Below, one piece after another: positions 13,297 through 60,245 of a DNA stretch of 64,000 bases. Position numbers and translations under genes: made by a program. Below the pieces are notes generated by a model. The model was not told the DNA's origin, did no database searches, and was given only the letters and a program-made list of their open reading frames with translations. Each line of letters starts with the position of its first letter. The stretch's first letter is position 1. The DNA lies in the NCBI RefSeq assembly GCF_006716645.1, contig NZ_VFPL01000001.1:558001-622000 (forward strand). Reading direction: 5' to 3'. This DNA comes from Arcticibacter tournemirensis (GTDB lineage Bacteria; Bacteroidota; Bacteroidia; Sphingobacteriales; Sphingobacteriaceae).

Positions 13297-13338
13297 GAGT
13301 TACGTGTTGCAAGTTGTGGGTTGTAAGTGGATTGGCGG
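13297..13338. repeat. Heptanucleotide array (6 units, GAGTTAC-type)
   Basis: Six consecutive 7-nt units: GAGTTAC, GTGTTGC, AAGTTGT, GGGTTGT, AAGTGGA, TTGGCGG (consensus RNGTTNN). The array fills the gap between the S1/P1 nuclease stop (13345) and the phosphatase start (13295). The words GAGTTA- and AAGTGGA recur in the array at 27398. Confidence 0.75.
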
Positions 13339-18419: not shown

Positions 18420-19109
18420 ATGAGAATAACCTATTATGGACAGTCCTGCTTCCTTTTGGAATTACAGGGAAAGAAAGTGTTGTTCGATCCTTTTATAACG
18501 CCTAATGAACTGGCGAAGGACATTGACGCAGATAACATACAAGCCGATTTTATACTTGTTTCACATGGACATTCAGATCATGCAGCCGATCTTATATCTA
18601 TAGCCGGCCGCACGGGAGCCACTGTTGTGTGTTCTTTCGAGATTTCTGAGTGGCTCAATAACAGGGGGGTATCTAATACGCACCCTATGAATCTCGGCGG
18701 ACAATGGTCATTTGAGTTCGGTAAGGTAAAAATGGTATTTGCCGCACATTCAAATTCACTGCCCGACGGAACCTATGGCGGCACGGCGGCAGGTTTCATT
18801 ATTCAATCCGACGGGAAGACCGTTTATTACTCAGGAGATACCGCCCTAACCCAGGAAATGAAGCTTACAGGCGAGCTCTATACTATAGACCTTGCTTTCC
18901 TCCCGATTGGGGATAATTTTACGATGGGAATTAACGATGCCGTTATTGCCTCGAAATTTATTAATTGTACAAATATCATAGGGATGCACTATGATACGTT
19001 CGGATACATTAAAATCGATAAAAAAGAAGCCCTGACAAAGTTTGAAAATGCAGGGCTCCGTTTAAGTTTGATTGATATCGGAAGCAGCGTTGAAATAATT
19101 GACAATTGA
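18420..19109 (+). CDS. UPF0173 metal-dependent hydrolase (metallo-beta-lactamase fold)
   Basis: A 229-residue MBL-fold hydrolase of the UPF0173/YtkL type. The metal motif is SHGHSDHAAD (HxHxDH, about residues 45-54); further ligands appear in FAAHSNSLPDGTYGG and YYSGDTALTQEM, and the closing His is in IIGMHYDTF. The substrate is unknown. It is cotranscribed behind YbaB. Its last codons (ATT GAC AAT TGA) are themselves part of the AATTGAC heptad array that follows, so the repeat has invaded, or grown out of, the 3' end of the gene. Confidence 0.92.
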   Translation: MRITYYGQSCFLLELQGKKVLFDPFITPNELAKDIDADNIQADFILVSHGHSDHAADLISIAGRTGATVVCSFEISEWLNNRGVSNTHPMNLGGQWSFEFGKVKMVFAAHSNSLPDGTYGGTAAGFIIQSDGKTVYYSGDTALTQEMKLTGELYTIDLAFLPIGDNFTMGINDAVIASKFINCTNIIGMHYDTFGYIKIDKKEALTKFENAGLRLSLIDIGSSVEIIDN

Positions 19110-19180
19110 CAATTGAAAATTGACAATTGAAAATGGGTATTGTCCCCTGTCAATTGTCCCCTTTCCCTTGTTCATTGCCT
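19097..19180. repeat. Heptanucleotide array (12 units) between convergent UPF0173 and glgC
   Basis: Twelve consecutive 7-nt units: AATTGAC, AATTGAC, AATTGAA, AATTGAC, AATTGAA, AATGGGT, then ATTGTCC, CCTGTCA, ATTGTCC, CCTTTCC, CTTGTTC, ATTGCCT. The first half reads GACAATT in sense with the + gene; the second half carries the complementary word, i.e. sense with the minus-strand glgC. It starts in the UPF0173 coding end and reaches the glgC stop codon. The same GGACAATTGACA words return at 51.8-52.0 kb. Confidence 0.85.
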
Positions 19181-25903: not shown

Positions 25904-26117
25904 TGTAACGTTTACAGTGAGATATATGATTACACAGATTATATGATCGACTGATTTTAAACGATTGTGCGGGGCAGTCAGGTATACAATCATTCAAAGT
26001 TAACAAGAAATAATCAATCTTCGTGGCTGCGGAATGACACCAGCGAAATCGCTTTTGAAAAGCCGCGGACGTCTAGCCCTTTTCATCCTTCTATACCACA
26101 AAATTGCGACAAGGAGC

Positions 26118-26315
26118 TGACAACTGTCTTACCAGTCCCTGATAATTGCCTGACCAGTCCCTGATCTTGTCAGCATCTCATCAGCATCTTCTCAGTATCA
26201 TGTCAGACTCTCGTTAGACTTTAGTCTGACATGATGCTGATGAGAGTCTAACATGATGCTGACATTATGCGGTTTTGGTCAGGGATTGGTCAGGGATTAA
26301 TAAGAAACTTGTCAG
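26118..26315. repeat. 18-unit array with exact 11-nt period and central dyad
   Basis: Eighteen uninterrupted 11-nt units fill 198 nt. Examples: TTACCAGTCCC, TGACCAGTCCC, TGATCTTGTCA, GCATCTCATCA, GCATCTTCTCA, GTATCATGTCA, GACATGATGCT, AACATGATGCT, GTTTTGGTCAG, GGATTGGTCAG. Units on the left carry CTGA or GTCA words; those on the right carry their complements, so the array folds on itself. The centre is a perfect 13-bp inverted repeat (26197-26209 with 26223-26235). It lies downstream of tag and upstream of polA. Confidence 0.85.
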
Positions 26316-27397: not shown

Positions 27398-27439
27398 GAG
27401 TTAAGAGTTAAAAGTGGAGAGTTAAAAGTAATGAATTGC
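27398..27439. repeat. Heptanucleotide array (6 units, GAGTTAA-type)
   Basis: Units: GAGTTAA, GAGTTAA, AAGTGGA, GAGTTAA, AAGTAAT, GAATTGC. It abuts the start codon of the AhpD-like gene and shares words with the array at 13297. Confidence 0.75.
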
Positions 27440-27503: not shown

Positions 27504-27545
27504 ACAAGTTATACTTAAAACTTATTACGTATAACTTATCTAAAC
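27504..27545. repeat. Heptanucleotide array (6 units, AACTTA-type), 3' of the MGMT homologue
   Basis: Units: ACAAGTT, ATACTTA, AAACTTA, TTACGTA, TAACTTA, TCTAAAC. Read on the minus strand the word is TAAGTTA, i.e. related to the GAGTTAA word of the array at 27398 on the plus strand, so the two arrays face each other across 64 nt. Confidence 0.65.
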
Positions 27546-37946: not shown

Positions 37947-39617
37947 ATGAGCGAAGAACGATCACTTAATTTTTTAGAAGAAATAATTGAAGAAGATATA
38001 AAGAACGGCAAGCATGGTGGACGGGTCCATACCCGTTTTCCTCCTGAACCTAATGGTTATCTCCACATAGGACACGCTAAATCTATCTGTCTGAATTTTG
38101 GATTGGCGAAAAAGTACAATGGCCAGACGAATCTCCGTTTTGACGATACTAATCCCGAGAAGGAAGAAACCGAGTATGTGGATAGTATTAAGGAGGATGT
38201 GAAATGGCTGGGATTTGAATGGCAGAATGAGTTTTATGCGTCTGATTACTTCGAGCAGCTTTATGAGTTTGCAATACAACTTATAAAAAAGGGGAAGGCC
38301 TATGTAGACGACAGTACTCCCGATGAAATAGCAGAACAAAAGGGGTCGCCTACTGAAGCAGGAACTCCATCGCCTTACAGGGACCGCTCTATAGAAGAGA
38401 ATCTGAAGTTGTTTGCTGAGATGCGTGAAGGGAAATACCAGGACGGCGAAAAGGTGTTACGTGCTAAGATTGATCTGGCGTCGCCAAATATGCATATGCG
38501 CGACCCGATTATGTATCGTATTCGTCATGCTCACCATCACAGAACGGGAGATGCATGGTGCATTTATCCGATGTATGATTTTGCACATGGACAATCCGAC
38601 TCTATTGAGAAAATAACGCATTCGGTTTGTACGCTTGAATTTATTCCTCACCGTGCGTTGTACGACTGGTTTATTGAAGAGCTTGAAATATTTCCGTCGA
38701 AACAGTACGAGTTTGCACGTTTGAATATGACGTATACTGTGATGAGCAAACGCCGTTTACTCCAGCTGGTGAATGAGGGTTTTGTGGATTCATGGGATGA
38801 TCCGAGAATGCCTACTATCAGTGCACTTCGTCGTCGTGGTTACACCGCTGCTTCGATACGTGATTTCTGTGAGAGAATAGGAATTGCAAAGCGGGAGAAT
38901 GTGATTGATGTAAGTTTGCTTGAGTTTTGCGTGCGGGAAGATTTAAATAAAACGGCCTGGCGCCGAATGGCTGTTCTCGATCCCGTAAAGCTTGTTATCA
39001 CAAATTATCCCGCGGGACAGGAAGAAGTTTTCAGTGGTGAGAATAATCCGGAAGAGGAAGATGGCGGAGGATCGCGTGAGATTCCATTCAGCGGAGAACT
39101 ATGGATTGAACGTGAAGACTTTATGGAAAACCCTACTAAGAAGTATTTCAGACTGGGGCCGGGTTTAATGGTAAGGCTTAAGAATGCTTATATTGTTAAA
39201 TGCGAAGACTTTGTAAAGGATGAACAGGGGAATATTACCGAAGTGCATTGTACATATATTCCTGAATCAAAGTCGGGCAACGATACTTCGGCGCTGAAAG
39301 TAAAAGGTACGATCCATTGGGTAAGCGTTTCTCACGCAGCAAAAGCCGAGGTTCGTTTATATGATCGTCTGTTCCGTGTAGAAGACCCGGGAGCCGAAGG
39401 CAGAGATTTTAGGGAATATATCAATCCTGAAAGCCTCCAGGTGATTCCAGAGGCTTATATAGAAGCTGACCTGGCAAGTGCCGAGCCCGGCAAAGGTTAC
39501 CAGTTTATCAGGAAGGGTTACTTTACTCTAGACAGAGAATCTGAACCCGGTAAATTGGTGTTCAACAGAACGGTTACATTAAAGGATACATGGGCAAAGG
39601 AAATTAAGAAAGGATAA
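37947..39617 (+). CDS. glnS: Glutamine--tRNA ligase
   Basis: A 556-residue class I synthetase. I chose the ATG at 37947 ([14 protein letters not shown]); the ATG at 37938 adds three residues. The HIGH motif is in [16 protein letters not shown], the KMSKS equivalent is VMSKRRLL, and the tRNA-Gln-specific body has [29 protein letters not shown]. The C-terminal beta-barrel anticodon domain starts near residue 335 ([12 protein letters not shown]). Its presence means the organism charges Gln-tRNA directly rather than only by transamidation. A heptad array begins 2 nt after its stop codon. Confidence 0.97.
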
Positions 39618-39619
39618 GG

Positions 39620-39654
39620 GAGTATTGAGATGTGAGATATGAGTGCTGAGATCG
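39620..39654. repeat. Heptanucleotide array (5 units, GAGATAT-type) after glnS
   Basis: Units: GAGTATT, GAGATGT, GAGATAT, GAGTGCT, GAGATCG. It starts 2 nt after the glnS stop. The complementary word forms a second array at 39704-39731, so the 128-bp glnS-rarA gap holds two facing arrays. Confidence 0.8.
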
Positions 39655-39703: not shown

Positions 39704-39731
39704 ACCTCTCAATACTCATATCTCAAAACTA
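39704..39731. repeat. Heptanucleotide array (4 units, complement of GAGATAT), before rarA
   Basis: Units: ACCTCTC, AATACTC, ATATCTC, AAAACTA. The run with TGAGATATGAG on the minus strand pairs with the array after glnS; the two could form a long imperfect hairpin across about 50 nt. rarA starts 14 nt later. Confidence 0.75.
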
Positions 39732-39745
39732 AACACCAGGTATAT

Positions 39746-50175: not shown

Positions 50176-51828
50176 ATGATTACAACTAAGGATATTTTTA
50201 GCTATGAACCTGATAAAAAATATGCAACCCCCGTTGCGTATTTCTCAATGGAGTTTGCCGTTGACCAGGCTTTAAAAATTTATAGTGGCGGTCTGGGATT
50301 CCTTGCCGGATCCCATTTGAGAAGCGCTTATGAATTGAAGCAAAATTTAATAGGAGTTGGGATCCTCTGGAAATTCGGATACTATGATCAGGTAAGGGAT
50401 ACTAACGGCACGATGAAAGCTGCTTTTATAGAGAAACACTATTCCTTCCTCGAAGATACAGGTATTAAGTTTACGATTCCGGTTCATGAATCACCGGTGC
50501 ATGTTAAAGTCTGGCTTTTGAAGCCTGATGTTTTCAGGTCGGCACCTCTTTTTCTGCTTAGTACTGATGTTCCCGAGAACGATGAAATTTCAAAGAGCAT
50601 TTGTCACCGCTTATATGATTCTAACGAAGCCACGCGTATTGCACAATCTATCCTGTTAGGAACAGGGGGAGCTAAATTGCTTGATATACTTGGTCGGGAT
50701 GATTCACTCTATCACATGAATGAAGGCCATTCGCTTTCTCTCAATTTTTACCTCTATTCTAAGTTCAAAAGTGTTGAGGAAGTTAAGAAACGTGTTGTTT
50801 TTACTACTCATACGCCCGAAGCTGCCGGTAATGAAGAACATGGGTATGCATTATTGCAGGAGATGTCCTTTTTTTATGGGCTTACCGAGGCTGAAGTTAA
50901 ATCAGTGTTAGGCCTCGACGGACCGGTATTGAACTATACGCTTGCAGCATTGAAGTTTGCCGGGAAAGCCAACGCGGTATCTAAGCTTCATGGTGACGTA
51001 TCGCGCGACATGTGGAAAGGTAACGAAGGCATCTGTGAAATCACTTCTATTACTAACGCTCAAAATACAGCTTATTGGACGGATCCCGCCTTTGAAAAGG
51101 CCCTTCGTTCAGGAAACGACCAGGGCATTGTTGCCCGGAAGAAGGAAATGAAGAAAGCCCTTTTCGAACTGGTTGCTGATCAATGCGGCAAGCTGTTTGA
51201 CGAGAATGTTATTACTATTGTGTGGGCGAGGAGGTTTGCTGCCTATAAGAGGGCTGACTTGCTGATGTATGACTGGGAACGATTTCTCAGACTCGTGGAA
51301 AATACAGAATACCCCGTTCAGGTAATTTGGGCAGGGAAACCTTATCCTCAGGACTATGGAGCGATTGATATGTTTAATAGCATTATTAAGCGGACTCAAC
51401 CTATTGCAAACTGCGCAGTGCTGACGGGATACGAGTTAAAGCTTTCGGCGTTACTGAAAAAGGGATCAGATATCTGGCTTAATAATCCAAAAATGTACAG
51501 GGAAGCCTCTGGCACCAGTGGGATGACAGCTGCCATGAACGGAAGTGTTAATCTGTCGATTCCAGACGGATGGATTCCTGAGTTTGCCAAAGATCTTGAA
51601 AACTGTTTTATTATTGAACCCGCGCCCGATCACTTGTCGACTGAAGAAAAAGATCGTATTGAAGCGCTTGATCTAATCGAGACTCTCGAAAATAAAGTGC
51701 TTCCAACTTACTATAAAGATCAGAATAAATGGCTTTCAATAGTTAAGAATGGAGCTGCAGATGTAGCCCCTGCTTTCGAATCCGGCCGTATGGCTCAGGA
51801 ATACTATGAGATAATGTACTCGAAATAA
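50176..51828 (+). CDS. GT35 alpha-glucan phosphorylase homologue without the PLP lysine
   Basis: A 550-residue protein of the short alpha-glucan phosphorylase family. Family landmarks are GGLGFLAGSHLRSAYEL, MNEGHSLSLN, FTTHTPEAAGNE, HGDVSRDMW, and the phosphate-contact segment ARRFAAYKRADL. The cofactor segment reads EASGTSGMTAAMNG: where phosphorylases have Lys binding PLP as a Schiff base (GNMK or SGMK), residue 451 is Thr (codon ACA). Glycogen degradation with PLP is therefore doubtful. glgA-glgC are in the same window but not adjacent. Two alternatives: noncovalent PLP use, or a glucan-binding/transferase protein. Confidence 0.9.
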   Translation: MITTKDIFSYEPDKKYATPVAYFSMEFAVDQALKIYSGGLGFLAGSHLRSAYELKQNLIGVGILWKFGYYDQVRDTNGTMKAAFIEKHYSFLEDTGIKFTIPVHESPVHVKVWLLKPDVFRSAPLFLLSTDVPENDEISKSICHRLYDSNEATRIAQSILLGTGGAKLLDILGRDDSLYHMNEGHSLSLNFYLYSKFKSVEEVKKRVVFTTHTPEAAGNEEHGYALLQEMSFFYGLTEAEVKSVLGLDGPVLNYTLAALKFAGKANAVSKLHGDVSRDMWKGNEGICEITSITNAQNTAYWTDPAFEKALRSGNDQGIVARKKEMKKALFELVADQCGKLFDENVITIVWARRFAAYKRADLLMYDWERFLRLVENTEYPVQVIWAGKPYPQDYGAIDMFNSIIKRTQPIANCAVLTGYELKLSALLKKGSDIWLNNPKMYREASGTSGMTAAMNGSVNLSIPDGWIPEFAKDLENCFIIEPAPDHLSTEEKDRIEALDLIETLENKVLPTYYKDQNKWLSIVKNGAADVAPAFESGRMAQEYYEIMYSK

Positions 51829-51862
51829 TGGACAGTTGACAATGGACAATTGAGAATTAAAA
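51828..51862. repeat. Heptanucleotide array (5 units, GGACAAT-type) at the GT35 stop codon
   Basis: Units: ATGGACA, GTTGACA, ATGGACA, ATTGAGA, ATTAAAA, starting on the last base of the stop codon. Same word as in the 19.1 kb array. Confidence 0.8.
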
Positions 51863-51876
51863 TAAAGAACAAAAGT

Positions 51877-51909
51877 AAAAGGCAAGCTGTTATTAAACGC
51901 TTGCCTTTT
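51877..51909. terminator. Bidirectional terminator between convergent GT35 and ThrE genes
   Basis: A perfect 11-bp stem (AAAAGGCAAGC with GCTTGCCTTTT) has an 11-nt loop and is flanked by the two facing heptad arrays. Confidence 0.88.
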
Positions 51910-51961
51910 GTCTTTCTTAGAGTATTTTAAACAGAGTCACTTAATACTAATGATTCCTTTC

Positions 51962-52038
51962 ATTATCCCTTATCATTCTTCCACTATCCGTTACCAACTC
52001 TCAATTGTCCACTGTCAATTGTCCTTTGTCAATTTCTC
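51962..52038. repeat. Heptanucleotide array (11 units, ATTGTCC-type) running into the thrE stop
   Basis: Units include ATTATCC, CTTATCA, ACTATCC, ACTCTCA, ATTGTCC, ACTGTCA, ATTGTCC, TTTGTCA. On the minus strand these read GGACAAT and TGACAGT, sense with the minus-strand gene, whose stop codon (52029-52031) lies inside the array. Confidence 0.82.
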
Positions 52039-54659: not shown

Positions 54660-54889
54660 TGGTTCGGATTACACAGCAGAGGCAGAAGTGCATAGGATGT
54701 AATGCCTGTGTAGAAGCTGCGAGTTACCGATGGCGTATTTCAAGAAAAGATGGTAAATGTACGCTGATTCAGGGAGTAGAAAAAAAAGGCTTCTATTCTG
54801 TTTTAGTCGGCGACGACGAATACGAAAGTAATAAGTCTGCTGCCATACATTGCCCCGTCAATATTATAAAAGTAGAAAAAGTAAAATGA
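54659..54889 (+). CDS. Small [4Fe-4S] ferredoxin
   Basis: A 76-residue ferredoxin. Cys ligands are CIGCNAC (CxxCxxC near residue 11-17) and the distal CP pair in AIHCPVNIIKVE near the end, enough for one cluster; the middle replaces the second cluster with a basic Trp/Arg-rich segment. The ATG shares a base with the U32 stop (TGATG), and its own stop overlaps the YhbP start (ATGA), so the three genes are translationally coupled. It probably gives electrons to the U32 partner. Confidence 0.9.
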   Translation: MVRITQQRQKCIGCNACVEAASYRWRISRKDGKCTLIQGVEKKGFYSVLVGDDEYESNKSAAIHCPVNIIKVEKVK

Positions 54890-55338
54890 CAGACGCCCCA
54901 ACAGAAATAATAAAAGTCGACAAGCGCATAGTAGCGTTTATCCAATCTCAATCAGTACTTACTATCGCTACCAGCGCCAATAATATGCCGTACTGCGCAA
55001 CTTGCTTTTATGCTTATAGCGAAAATGCCAATGCACTGGTTTTTAAGTCTTCACCCGAAACAACTCACATCGCTCAGGGTATTGAGAACGACTTTGTAGC
55101 AGGCTCTGTTCTGCCTGATAAACTGGTTACAGGCAAGGTAAAGGGTATTCAGTATTCCGGTATTCTGGTTAGGGTAGATGCTGCACTTCAGGATGATCTG
55201 CAAAAAGTTTATTATAAAAAGTATCCTTTTGCATTGGCTATGGGAGGAGAACTATGGGCGATCAAGCTTAATTGGATGAAGTTTACTGATAACACGTTGG
55301 GATTTGGTACAAAAGTGATTTGGGGAGAACGGGATTAG
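54886..55338 (+). CDS. YhbP/UPF0306 family protein (PNPOx-like fold)
   Basis: A 150-residue protein starting at the ATG at 54886. The C-terminal segment KFTDNTLGFGTKVIW is nearly identical to that of E. coli YhbP (KFTDNTLGFGKKMIW), and the whole chain has the split-barrel flavin-binding shape of PNPOx-like proteins (SVLTIATSANNMPYCATCFYAY). In E. coli yhbP lies next to the U32 genes yhbU and yhbV. Here it overlaps the ferredoxin gene by 4 nt, so the U32-YhbP link is conserved across phyla. Function: unknown, possibly a redox partner. A heptad array starts on its stop codon. Confidence 0.9.
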   Translation: MTDAPTEIIKVDKRIVAFIQSQSVLTIATSANNMPYCATCFYAYSENANALVFKSSPETTHIAQGIENDFVAGSVLPDKLVTGKVKGIQYSGILVRVDAALQDDLQKVYYKKYPFALAMGGELWAIKLNWMKFTDNTLGFGTKVIWGERD

Positions 55339-55470
55339 CCGTTAGCTGTCAGCGATCAGCAATCAACGATCAGCTGTCAGCAATCAGCCTTCAGTAATTA
55401 GCAATTAACAATCAGGCGTTAGCTGTCAGCCTTCAGCTGTCAAAAATCAGCCGGTAGTTGCCAACTATCA
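55338..55470. repeat. 19-unit heptanucleotide array (GCnnTCA) after the YhbP homologue
   Basis: Nineteen uninterrupted 7-nt units cover 133 nt, starting on the last base of the stop codon. Consensus GCNNTCA; exact units include GCTGTCA four times, GCAATCA twice and GCCTTCA twice. Position 7 is A in every unit and position 5 is nearly always T. No coding frame runs through it. It is followed by a bidirectional terminator and a shorter facing array. Confidence 0.9.
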
Positions 55471-55513: not shown

Positions 55514-55541
55514 AAGGCGGCCTTTTTTAAAGGGCCGCCTT
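55514..55541. terminator. Bidirectional intrinsic terminator between YhbP and PDH E2 genes
   Basis: AAGGCGGCC pairs perfectly with GGCCGCCTT (9 bp, 10-nt loop), with flanking A and T tracts, between convergent gene ends. Confidence 0.9.
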
Positions 55542-55548
55542 ATATTTT

Positions 55549-55576
55549 TATTAGCTGACAGCTATTTGCTTTAAAC
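55549..55576. repeat. Short facing heptad array (4 units) at the PDH E2 stop
   Basis: Units: TATTAGC, TGACAGC, TATTTGC, TTTAAAC. On the minus strand the word is GCTGTCA, the same as in the large array on the other side of the terminator. It overlaps the E2 stop codon. Confidence 0.65.
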
Positions 55577-58878: not shown

Positions 58879-60097
58879 ATTGTGTGCTGCTTTTTAAGAT
58901 TATACGCATTGTAGTGCCCTTGCCGGGCTCAGAGTCTTTCACGAAAATCTGACCCTTATGGTAGTTTTCGACGATGCGGCGGGTCAGGGATAAACCCAGT
59001 CCCCAGCCTCTTTTACGGGTTGTATATCCCGGTTGAAATATTGTTTCAAACTTAAGCCGGGAAATTCCCTTGCCGGTATCGACAACATCGATAAACACTT
59101 GTTCTTTAACTAAATTTTCAATAACCCGTACTTCTATTCTTCCTTCTCCTTCGATCGCATTTACTGCATTTTTTAAGAGGTTTTCTACAACCCAGTCAAA
59201 AAGTGGGACGTTCATCAGGGCCTCAACCTCAGTATCTCCCGAAACTTCAAATTTAATTCTGTCGCTCGCCCTTACCTTGAAGTAGTTAACATAATCTTTA
59301 ACCACGTCAAAAACGATGTGGCTTTGAAGGACCGGCTTTGAGCCTATTTTAGAAAACCTGTCGGCCACCATTTCAAGCCGGGTTATATCATTTTCCATTT
59401 CAAGGATCAGCGGGTCTTCCTCGGCATTAAACTTTGATTTCAATAGTTCTATCCATGCCATCAAAGAAGAAATAGGCGTTCCCAACTGATGAGCTGTCTC
59501 TTTGGCCAATCCAACCCAAACCAGATTCTGCTCAGATCGTCGCGACGAGCTAAAAACAGTATACGCAACCAAAAGAAAAAGCGCCACAACAGTAAGCTGG
59601 ATGTAAGGGAATACGCGCAGCTGGGTTAACAGCAGAGAATCCTTATAATATACAAACCACTTTTCGCCATTATCCTTGGTAATTACAATGGGTACATGCT
59701 GCAACTTCATCTCGTTCAGTTGCATCTTAAAGTAAACAGGATCGTATGTTTTCTGGTTGTAAACCGGCGACTCAATGGTGGCAGCTTCTTGCGGAATATT
59801 CGTCTTTGTACTATCCAGCCCTTTCCAGTATATGATGCTGTCCTGTTCGTCTGTAAGGATAGCGGGCATGGTCAGACTGTCGCGTACCGAGTAGATATAG
59901 GTAAGAAACTCATCGTTTATATCCTCAATTTCAACGATCTTTTTAGTACTCATGGCCCACACTTCAGCCCTCGTTCGTTCCGAAAGAGAAATGTTCTTCA
60001 CGAGATAGTAACTATACCAGAGCGACGCTGCAGCTATTACCATAGCAAAGGCAAGTAAAAGAAATTTCCAGCGTCGTTTCTGCTCGTATGGATTCAT
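58859..60097 (-). CDS. Membrane sensor histidine kinase, single PhoQ/EnvZ-like layout
   Basis: A 412-residue kinase with TM1 at about 10-33, a periplasmic loop of about 145 residues (with EQDSIIYWKGLDSTKTN), TM2 at about 180-200, then DHp with H-box KETAHQLGTPISSLMAW (His about 216) and HATPase_c with NLLKNAVNAIEGE, DTGKGIS and GWGLGLSLTRRI. The HQLGTP wording is common to one Bacteroidota kinase group. No response regulator is adjacent; a DinB gene follows, overlapping by 20 nt. Confidence 0.92.
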   Translation of the reverse strand: MNPYEQKRRWKFLLLAFAMVIAAASLWYSYYLVKNISLSERTRAEVWAMSTKKIVEIEDINDEFLTYIYSVRDSLTMPAILTDEQDSIIYWKGLDSTKTNIPQEAATIESPVYNQKTYDPVYFKMQLNEMKLQHVPIVITKDNGEKWFVYYKDSLLLTQLRVFPYIQLTVVALFLLVAYTVFSSSRRSEQNLVWVGLAKETAHQLGTPISSLMAWIELLKSKFNAEEDPLILEMENDITRLEMVADRFSKIGSKPVLQSHIVFDVVKDYVNYFKVRASDRIKFEVSGDTEVEALMNVPLFDWVVENLLKNAVNAIEGEGRIEVRVIENLVKEQVFIDVVDTGKGISRLKFETIFQPGYTTRKRGWGLGLSLTRRIVENYHKGQIFVKDSEPGKGTTMRIILKSSTQYEPATA

Positions 60098-60100
60098 TAT

Positions 60101-60135
60101 TTAGTAGTTAGCTGTTGGCGTTTAGTTTTAGCACT
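60101..60135. repeat. Heptanucleotide array (5 units, TTAGnnG-type) before the kinase start
   Basis: Units: TTAGTAG, TTAGCTG, TTGGCGT, TTAGTTT, TAGCACT. It begins 4 nt upstream of the kinase start codon and shares TTAGCTG with the 55.3 kb array. Confidence 0.65.
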
Positions 60136-60175
60136 AGGCAGACACCATCAGTTTACATATTCATTTATAAATTTT

Positions 60176-60245
60176 CTTGATACCTGTGTCTTGATACTTG
60201 CTACTTATATCTTGATACTTGCTACTTGTGTCTTGATACTTTTCA
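60176..60245. repeat. Heptanucleotide array (10 units, CTTGATA) overlapping the prolyl oligopeptidase stop
   Basis: Ten units: CTTGATA four times, CTTGCTA twice, plus CCTGTGT, CTTATAT, CTTGTGT and CTTTTCA. The last unit contains the complement of the stop codon. On the minus strand the array reads TATCAAG after the gene. Confidence 0.85.

Follow-up and report, generated by a model that had tools for sequence, protein, structure and literature searches.

The convergent gap at 55.3 kb of the window (the whole 64,000-nucleotide stretch of Arcticibacter tournemirensis DNA that was analysed, from a genome of 5.66 Mb in two contigs) raises the question of what kind of element starts on the stop codon of a gene and proceeds from there in steps of exactly seven nucleotides. 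An earlier note had described this array as the largest of a family of degenerate heptanucleotide arrays at gene boundaries. It was confirmed by a period-7 self-match with a score of 35 and by its start on the TAG stop of a Pyridox_ox_2-like (YhbP-type) gene (54886–55338; Pfam Pyridox_ox_2 match with an E-value of 0.00038, below the curated cut-off), which forms the left, stop edge of a gap of 232 nt with the pyruvate dehydrogenase E2 gene on its far side. The self-match itself spans 55335–55442, with the units beyond it being traced by eye to approximately 55470 (Table 1). The best reading of this and the other arrays is that they are heptanucleotide tandem repeats of a sort that several phyla are known to have, here degenerate and with many words.

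Arrays of the window and the period spectrum

Of the further arrays that had been claimed for the window, those at 19097, 51831, 51995 and 60190 were recovered with scores of at least 13. Those at 27398, 39609, 27513, 60092, 39708 and 13299 were found to be weak, with scores from 11 to 7, and none of them is safe individually. The short array at 55549 stood as an inverted match of 11 nt with the main array but not as a period-7 array, with no segment of score 5 or more being present there in the self-match scan.

Table 1. Arrays and hairpins located in the window, with scores of the period-7 self-match.
Feature	Position	Strand	Remarks
GAGTTAC/AAGTTGT array, very weak	13299–13324	+	score 7; unsafe alone
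Mirrored AATTGAC arrays	19097–19177		score 28; fill convergent gap; stop codon of left gene inside array
GAGTTAA/AAGTGGA array	27398–27429	+	start edge; score 11
ACTTATA array, weak	27513–27539	-	score 10
TGAGATG array	39609–39650	+	across and beyond a stop; score 11; orthologous gap of G004 with AGTTGAA words
Array opposite to that at 39609, weak	39708–39736	-	score 8
Left arm, AATTGAC/GGACAGT words	51827–51858	+	stop edge; period-7 segment 51831–51873, score 14
Imperfect hairpin	51868–51918		arms 76% complementary, followed by T-rich stretch; between the 51.8- and 52.0-kb arms
Right arm, same convergent gap as the 51827 arm	51996–52027	-	period-7 segment 51995–52030, score 13
Main array	55335–55470	+	about 19 units of TYAGCNN at an exact 7-nt step; first unit contains stop codon
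Terminator-like hairpin	55514–55541		between main array and short opposite arm
Short opposite arm	55549–55570	-	stop edge of E2 gene; GCTGACAGCTA at 55554–55564 is an exact 11-nt inverted match to main-array units
TAGTAGT/TAGCTGT array	60092–60119	+	start edge; score 9
CTTGATA array	60190–60241	-	stop edge; 21-nt higher-order repeat (93%); period-7 segment 60190–60235, score 13

Self-match was scored at every period, with a threshold of 12, in a sample composed of 59 stretches of 20 kb and the window (1.244 Mb; 152 kb noncoding, with genes called by a hexamer model), and ten dinucleotide shuffles were used for comparison. Period 7 gave 85 noncoding segments against a shuffled mean of 1.1 (maximum of 3 in the ten shuffles), accompanied by 73 segments at period 14 and 49 at period 21. 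The heptamer arrays are genuine and far above chance; chance or composition as their source is ruled out by the shuffles, and the claim that such arrays exist stands. The next class was period 11, with 18 noncoding segments against 0.6 in shuffles, while periods 10, 20 and 32 gave 6, 6 and 7 segments, slightly exceeding the shuffles, and at this threshold periods 6, 8, 9 and 13 gave no noncoding segments. Predicted coding overlap was at most 60% for 84 of the 92 period-7 segments found in the sample as a whole, which are thus intergenic. The other eight lie in predicted genes (e.g., L118 7005–7186 and L129 5748–5835), some of which probably result from genes wrongly called across array gaps. 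The units are not near-exact copies of a single word, since many words are used per genome and neighbouring units match at a mean of 0.683 (35 long arrays).

It should also be noted that arrays with an 11-nt step, located in mid-gap and partly palindromic, occur at 26108–26298 of the window and elsewhere in the sample. These form a second class with other words.

The word family of the main array was followed through the genome with the pattern TYAGCNNTYAGCNNTYAGC, which gave 32 partly overlapping matches, with none for the reversed pattern. Of 21 places, 20 were read, and the outward edge was the nearer one in 15 of these (by reading; p 0.04). The TYAGC-family matches lie on the + strand from 0.32 to 2.17 Mb, on the - strand from 2.55 to 3.12 Mb and on both beyond this; a replication-strand bias of these words was considered and set aside, GC skew giving no consistent fit. 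Among named E2 loci, the nearest to the E2 of the window was that of Pararcticibacter amylolyticus (84%). An array of score 14 was present in only 14 of 80 such loci, with no useful close pair among them.

Position, direction and core

Arrays were found in 65 gaps of the sample (gaps of at least 40 nt), namely 14 of 69 convergent, 26 of 210 and 18 of 239 same-strand and 7 of 117 divergent gaps, with convergent gaps being enriched (p 0.01). A position over a stop codon or within 10 nt of one was observed for 44 of 72 arrays, compared with 16.8 expected from uniform placement in the same gaps. Among the 54 arrays nearest to a stop, 44 were at −23 to +10 nt from it and 20 overlapped it. The link to stop codons proposed earlier is therefore upheld, yet 28 of 82 arrays are nearest to a start, 21 of these being at most 60 nt from it. 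As the shuffles fall short of the observed number and the stop link is present, neither test overturns the earlier interpretation.

Within the gaps, the arrays were found to have a direction. By a count of AGT words reading away from the gene edge, 48 gaps were outward and 6 inward, with 11 ties (same-strand 21 to 1 and 11 to 4, convergent 11 to 0, divergent 5 to 1). A purely 3′-end role, which had been among the suggestions of the earlier note, is unsupported because arrays located at start edges, and likewise those of divergent gaps, share this outward tendency. A free motif search gave WACTNNN in its own orientation, which is the same core, and the gap side agreed in 70 of 82 arrays. Because such a search picks its own phase and orientation, the core was rechecked with the nearer gap edge as the sole guide to orientation, each array being read away from the gene. 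Recurrence seven nucleotides on was then seen for AGT in 46 of 82 arrays, for AAG in 43, for GTT in 36 and for ACT in 5. AGT exceeded ACT in 42 of the 54 stop-edge arrays (the reverse in 5) and in 20 of the 28 start-edge arrays (the reverse in 2), against only a slight asymmetry at array-free edges (AGT 190 and ACT 165 at stops, 284 and 251 at starts). In samples of other genomes, the outward rule was followed by 11 of 13 arrays in G211, 6 of 7 in G007, 17 of 20 in G127 (near hits chosen) and 2 of 5 in G231, where the words are others.

A fixed step and a common core could suggest binding arrays for a putative sequence-specific protein which polymerises on DNA at a 7-bp step. This is unlikely, as the words vary widely inside one genome and a step of 7 bp turns the helix by approximately 240 degrees per unit.

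A second, tentative explanation is that the arrays are selected transcript-end elements, with AGT words at 3′ ends and their complement in 5′ leaders, which would act through an RNA-binding protein or a mutual hairpin in read-through RNA. The outward rule amounts to 3′ UTRs with AGT words and 5′ leaders with ACT words, as this explanation would have it. Against it, the supply of stop codons fails to explain the orientation, with stop edges containing 7.3 stops per 100 nt outward and 6.1 inward, a weak difference, and with all frames being closed by 21 of 35 long arrays against 18.9 in shuffles; no Rfam family matches within the window either. It should be cautioned that heptamer arrays may provide stop codons and occupy intergenic gaps. 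The RRM RNA-binding protein RbpB of Bacteroides was considered as a lead for a binder and dropped, no heptamer motif being found among the matches listed (12 of 46) in the available text on it (PMC11697453).

Mirrored arms and proposed turnover of the units

A segment of score at least 9 was present near both edges in 22 of the 65 array gaps. The inverted arms of one gap shared 7-mers at 0.286 compared with 0.046 between gaps, a value which none of 5000 permutations reached (n = 22), with sharing in the opposite sense being 0.000 in the same 22 gaps. At least one 7-mer was common to both arms in 15 of these gaps and none in 7. Small samples gave values of 0.36 within and 0.00 between gaps for G007 (2 gaps) and of 0.13 and 0.05 for G127 (5 gaps), with no excess in the G211 sample (0.18 within and 0.21 between; 3 gaps), which counts against arm exchange. 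Of four gaps of the window that were searched, three had inverted arms and one, at 60.1 kb, had none; the left and right arms of the gap at 51.8–52.0 kb are 88% complementary across 32 nt.

The arrays had also been said to lie often around a hairpin terminator. This is no general rule, as terminator-like hairpins were present in 7 of 60 array gaps, which is no excess over the 74 of 433 array-free gaps (gaps of 60–450 nt). The predicted RNA of the + strand was more stable than shuffles in two-arm gaps (median z of −3.47, with 14 of 20 below −2), which agrees with transcript-end elements; one-arm gaps, however, fold well likewise (21 of 40 below −2). Stable folding in both kinds of gap is compatible with transcript-end elements as well as with slippage and arm exchange.

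An explanation with roughly even prospects is that the arrays are heptanucleotide minisatellites whose turnover proceeds by tandem duplication together with template switching from one inverted arm to the other, and which are pressed against functional edges. Whole units of 7 nt would be gained or lost through slippage or tandem duplication, and the replication machinery would switch template between the foldable inverted arms, so that the arms of one gap stay alike. The spread of an array would be halted at gene edges by purifying selection on coding sequence, stops and translation starts. The similarity of units at lags of 1 to 6 was 0.683, 0.670, 0.628, 0.552, 0.541 and 0.513 (35 arrays of at least 8 units), a decay with distance as predicted by tandem duplication, and higher-order repeats of 14 and 21 nt are present in the arrays. 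Both observations support the slippage-like process that had been put forward earlier, and the sharing of words by inverted arms fits template switching. The period spectrum and the crowding of arrays at stops also speak for this explanation. This sharing is harder to place for transcript-end elements, as it was clear in one of the two two-arm divergent gaps (0.54; the other 0.04), where one transcript should not span both arms.

The 7-nt unit, the AGT core and the outward AGT strand fall outside the model of slippage and arm exchange. The orientation rule (48 to 6) and the core count against it, because slippage and symmetric arm exchange account for neither. They would need a sequence preference of the slippage enzyme or selection on transcript ends. 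In 8 of 35 arrays, mismatches fell mostly on a small subset of the seven unit positions (p < 0.025 each, uncorrected). This clustering counts against plain slippage with random mutation, although it could arise if one variant were copied along an array, and the sparing of certain positions in a fraction of the arrays is in favour of transcript-end elements.

Known heptamer repeats, relatives and spread

The STRRs of filamentous cyanobacteria are short heptanucleotide tandem repeats between genes. The arrays found here are intergenic tandem heptanucleotides as well, but are set apart by description, STRRs having named cyanobacterial words and the host here being one of the Sphingobacteriaceae. 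The REP/BIME elements of enterobacteria are inverted, extragenic palindromic elements favouring 3′ ends. The present arrays are likewise inverted and extragenic but consist of tandem 7-mers without a fixed palindrome by eye.

The heptamer-repeat class itself is not new, its occurrence in Bacteroidetes, its outward placement and its abundance having already been published. The statement of the earlier note that no such class had been described in Bacteroidota is contradicted by TAACTGA and other heptamer direct repeats reported from five Bacteroidetes species in the available text of PMC4679880. According to this text, TAACTGA direct repeats are intergenic and also occur in Beggiatoaceae and Cyanobacteria, and the corresponding gaps in close relatives of Gramella and Aequorivita are shorter and lack obvious repeats (PMC4679880). 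In Flexibacter, 12 of 14 TAACTGA sets precede a start and are oriented forward, and one, oriented in reverse, lies just past a stop (PMC4679880, available text), which in our reading matches the outward rule, the complement reading AGTTATC outward. As described there, that system uses a single exact word, in contrast to the many words here, and TAACTGATAACTGA was found 0 times on both strands of the 1.244 Mb. The GGGAATC and GGGGA(C/T)T heptamers of Xanthomonas and Nostoc are given, in the part of the paper available, as intergenic, mostly 0–50 bp from ORFs and under-represented in divergent gaps, lying upstream of ORFs on the non-coding strand and downstream of them on the coding strand (PMC4692102). 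This amounts to an outward placement near ORFs, as in the arrays here. Their word is G-rich and capable of forming a G-quadruplex (PMC4692102, same part), whereas here there are many words, AGT is the commonest core and a motif of four GGG runs was present in none of the 82 arrays, whichever strand was read. According to the available text of the SPADE study, heptamers exceed all other intergenic tandem repeats in abundance across a wide range of prokaryotes and offer little hint of a function; no orientation, core or arm rules like those described here are given there (PMC6344855). The idea that 7 nt is the stretch gripped by DNA polymerase is cited from an earlier study in the available parts of both PMC4679880 and PMC4692102. 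No description of mirrored arrays with an AGT core and many words was found in the open-access literature searched, which covers few subscription journals. The placement rules (gene-edge, outward, mirrored) of bacterial seven-base repeats have been little explored so far. Rules which hold across many words (direction, core, mirrored arms and word replacement) give testable questions on replication or transcript ends.

Orthologous gaps were compared in five genomes of the genus (G001–G005), with some unread bases in two of the compared gaps of G001. Gaps 46 (51829–52028) and 54 (60098–60242), of 200 and 145 nt here, measure 5–8 and 5–9 nt, respectively, and are array-free in G002, G003 and G005. 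Gap 46 is 50 nt long in G004 and 165 nt in G001, neither with an array of score 11, and gap 54 in a Pedobacter locus is 33 nt long without an array. In gap 18 (19097–19177), G001 has mirrored AGTTGAA/AGTAAAA words, the two arms of each species being alike (by eye). The words of G004 in gaps 24 and 36 differ from those here, and G001 has no array of score 11 in either. For gap 50, which holds the main array, none of the five relatives (72–174 nt) had an array of score 11. Together with the Flavobacterium loci described below, these comparisons show that positions can outlast words and unit numbers, and that very short gaps can gain or lose arrays, which is in favour of the model of slippage and arm exchange.

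Gaps 46 and 54 thus resemble inserts of about 140–195 nt between genes which nearly abut in three relatives and, together with the inverted arms in three of four window gaps, bring to mind remnants of mobile elements, i.e., small intergenic insertions with heptamer arrays as terminal inverted repeats. Such an origin is highly improbable, as words and spacers vary by gap, sister species have different words in the same gap, the arms of 7 of 22 two-arm gaps have no 7-mer in common and no core was common among the gaps inspected by eye.

One same-strand gap was also followed through Flavobacterium (27 loci including the query, with flanks 77–86% like the query). A period-7 tract of score at least 10 was present within the 120 nt that precede the downstream start in 16 of 27 loci, against 0.4 expected from shuffles. 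The tracts span 25–96 nt with differing words and lengths; ACTCATA, ACTTATA, ACTAATA and AACTTYT were read by eye. ACT exceeded AGT in 20 of 27 loci, with the reverse in 4. Maintenance of a start-side tract with changing words speaks for transcript-end elements, against which stand the 11 of 27 loci that score below 10, several of them AAC-rich or of an 8-nt step. One locus read by eye as a heptamer tract was rejected, its step being 8 nt and its period-7 score 0.

The spread of the arrays was surveyed with a pattern of AGTWNNN three times followed by AGTW, which was present in 176 of 296 Bacteroidota genomes. The 120 genomes without a match also count against transcript-end elements. The backwards control gave 84 matches against 140 forward in the genome of the window, 214 against 0 in G297 and 70 against 0 in G126. 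Because this control matches often, partly through other heptamers, the tally describes the spread of period-7 words more than that of the AGT core. Inside one genus, counts ranged from 150 (G141) and 130 (G118) down to 0 (G032, G149). Among the matches listed, each genome prefers its own words. Sharing of array 7-mers was higher inside a genome than across genomes for G000 (0.045 and at most 0.024), G211 (0.092 and at most 0.024) and G007 (0.131 and at most 0.082). G127 (0.066 within and 0.082 to G007) and G231 (0.000 within) showed no such excess.

An AGT strand running 3′ into the gap from both edges is predicted by enzyme-driven addition, in which telomere-like 7-nt words would be put on 3′ ends at breaks in the gap and the ends joined, yielding head-to-head arrays; such genome-specific words, where seen, and the higher frequency of RVT_1 in heptamer-rich genomes also speak for it. 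In 24 heptamer-rich genomes hand-picked from the AGTW tally, RVT_1 was present in 14, against 6 of 25 other genomes (p 0.02), and Ku in 8, against 3 of 25 (p 0.10), relatedness being uncontrolled in both cases. A requirement for RVT_1 and Ku, the simple telomerase-like form of this explanation, fails, with 10 of the 24 rich genomes lacking an RVT_1 match and 16 a Ku match. Enzyme-driven addition is very unlikely given these absences, the decay of unit similarity with distance, which is like that of tandem duplication, and the spacer which separates the arms in most gaps read (by eye). The RVT_1 matches at 1508330, 3296407, 3427854 and 4944935 of G000:C1 have equal scores and lie in frames of 454 aa, and are likely copies of one mobile reverse transcriptase.

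It is a doubtful proposal, beyond the model of slippage and arm exchange, that the heptamer arrays across Bacteroidota and, by their published placement, those of Xanthomonas, Nostoc and Beggiatoa form one gene-boundary class. A common edge-directional process would then run the core (AGT-W here) 3′ into the gap from both sides with genome-specific words and rewrite both arms together, and the 7-nt step would be due to this process and not to slippage alone.

Two further observations were made. The AGTATCA word was tried against IMG/VR contigs and was on none, and the AGTTGAA word was found in tandem on eight (L330–L337). Units with an apparent 8-nt step, such as AATTAGAT, occur beside heptamers in the L237 gap and its Flavobacterium orthologues (L260–L289), and the G127 sample contained nine segments of period 8, compared with 0.0 in shuffles.
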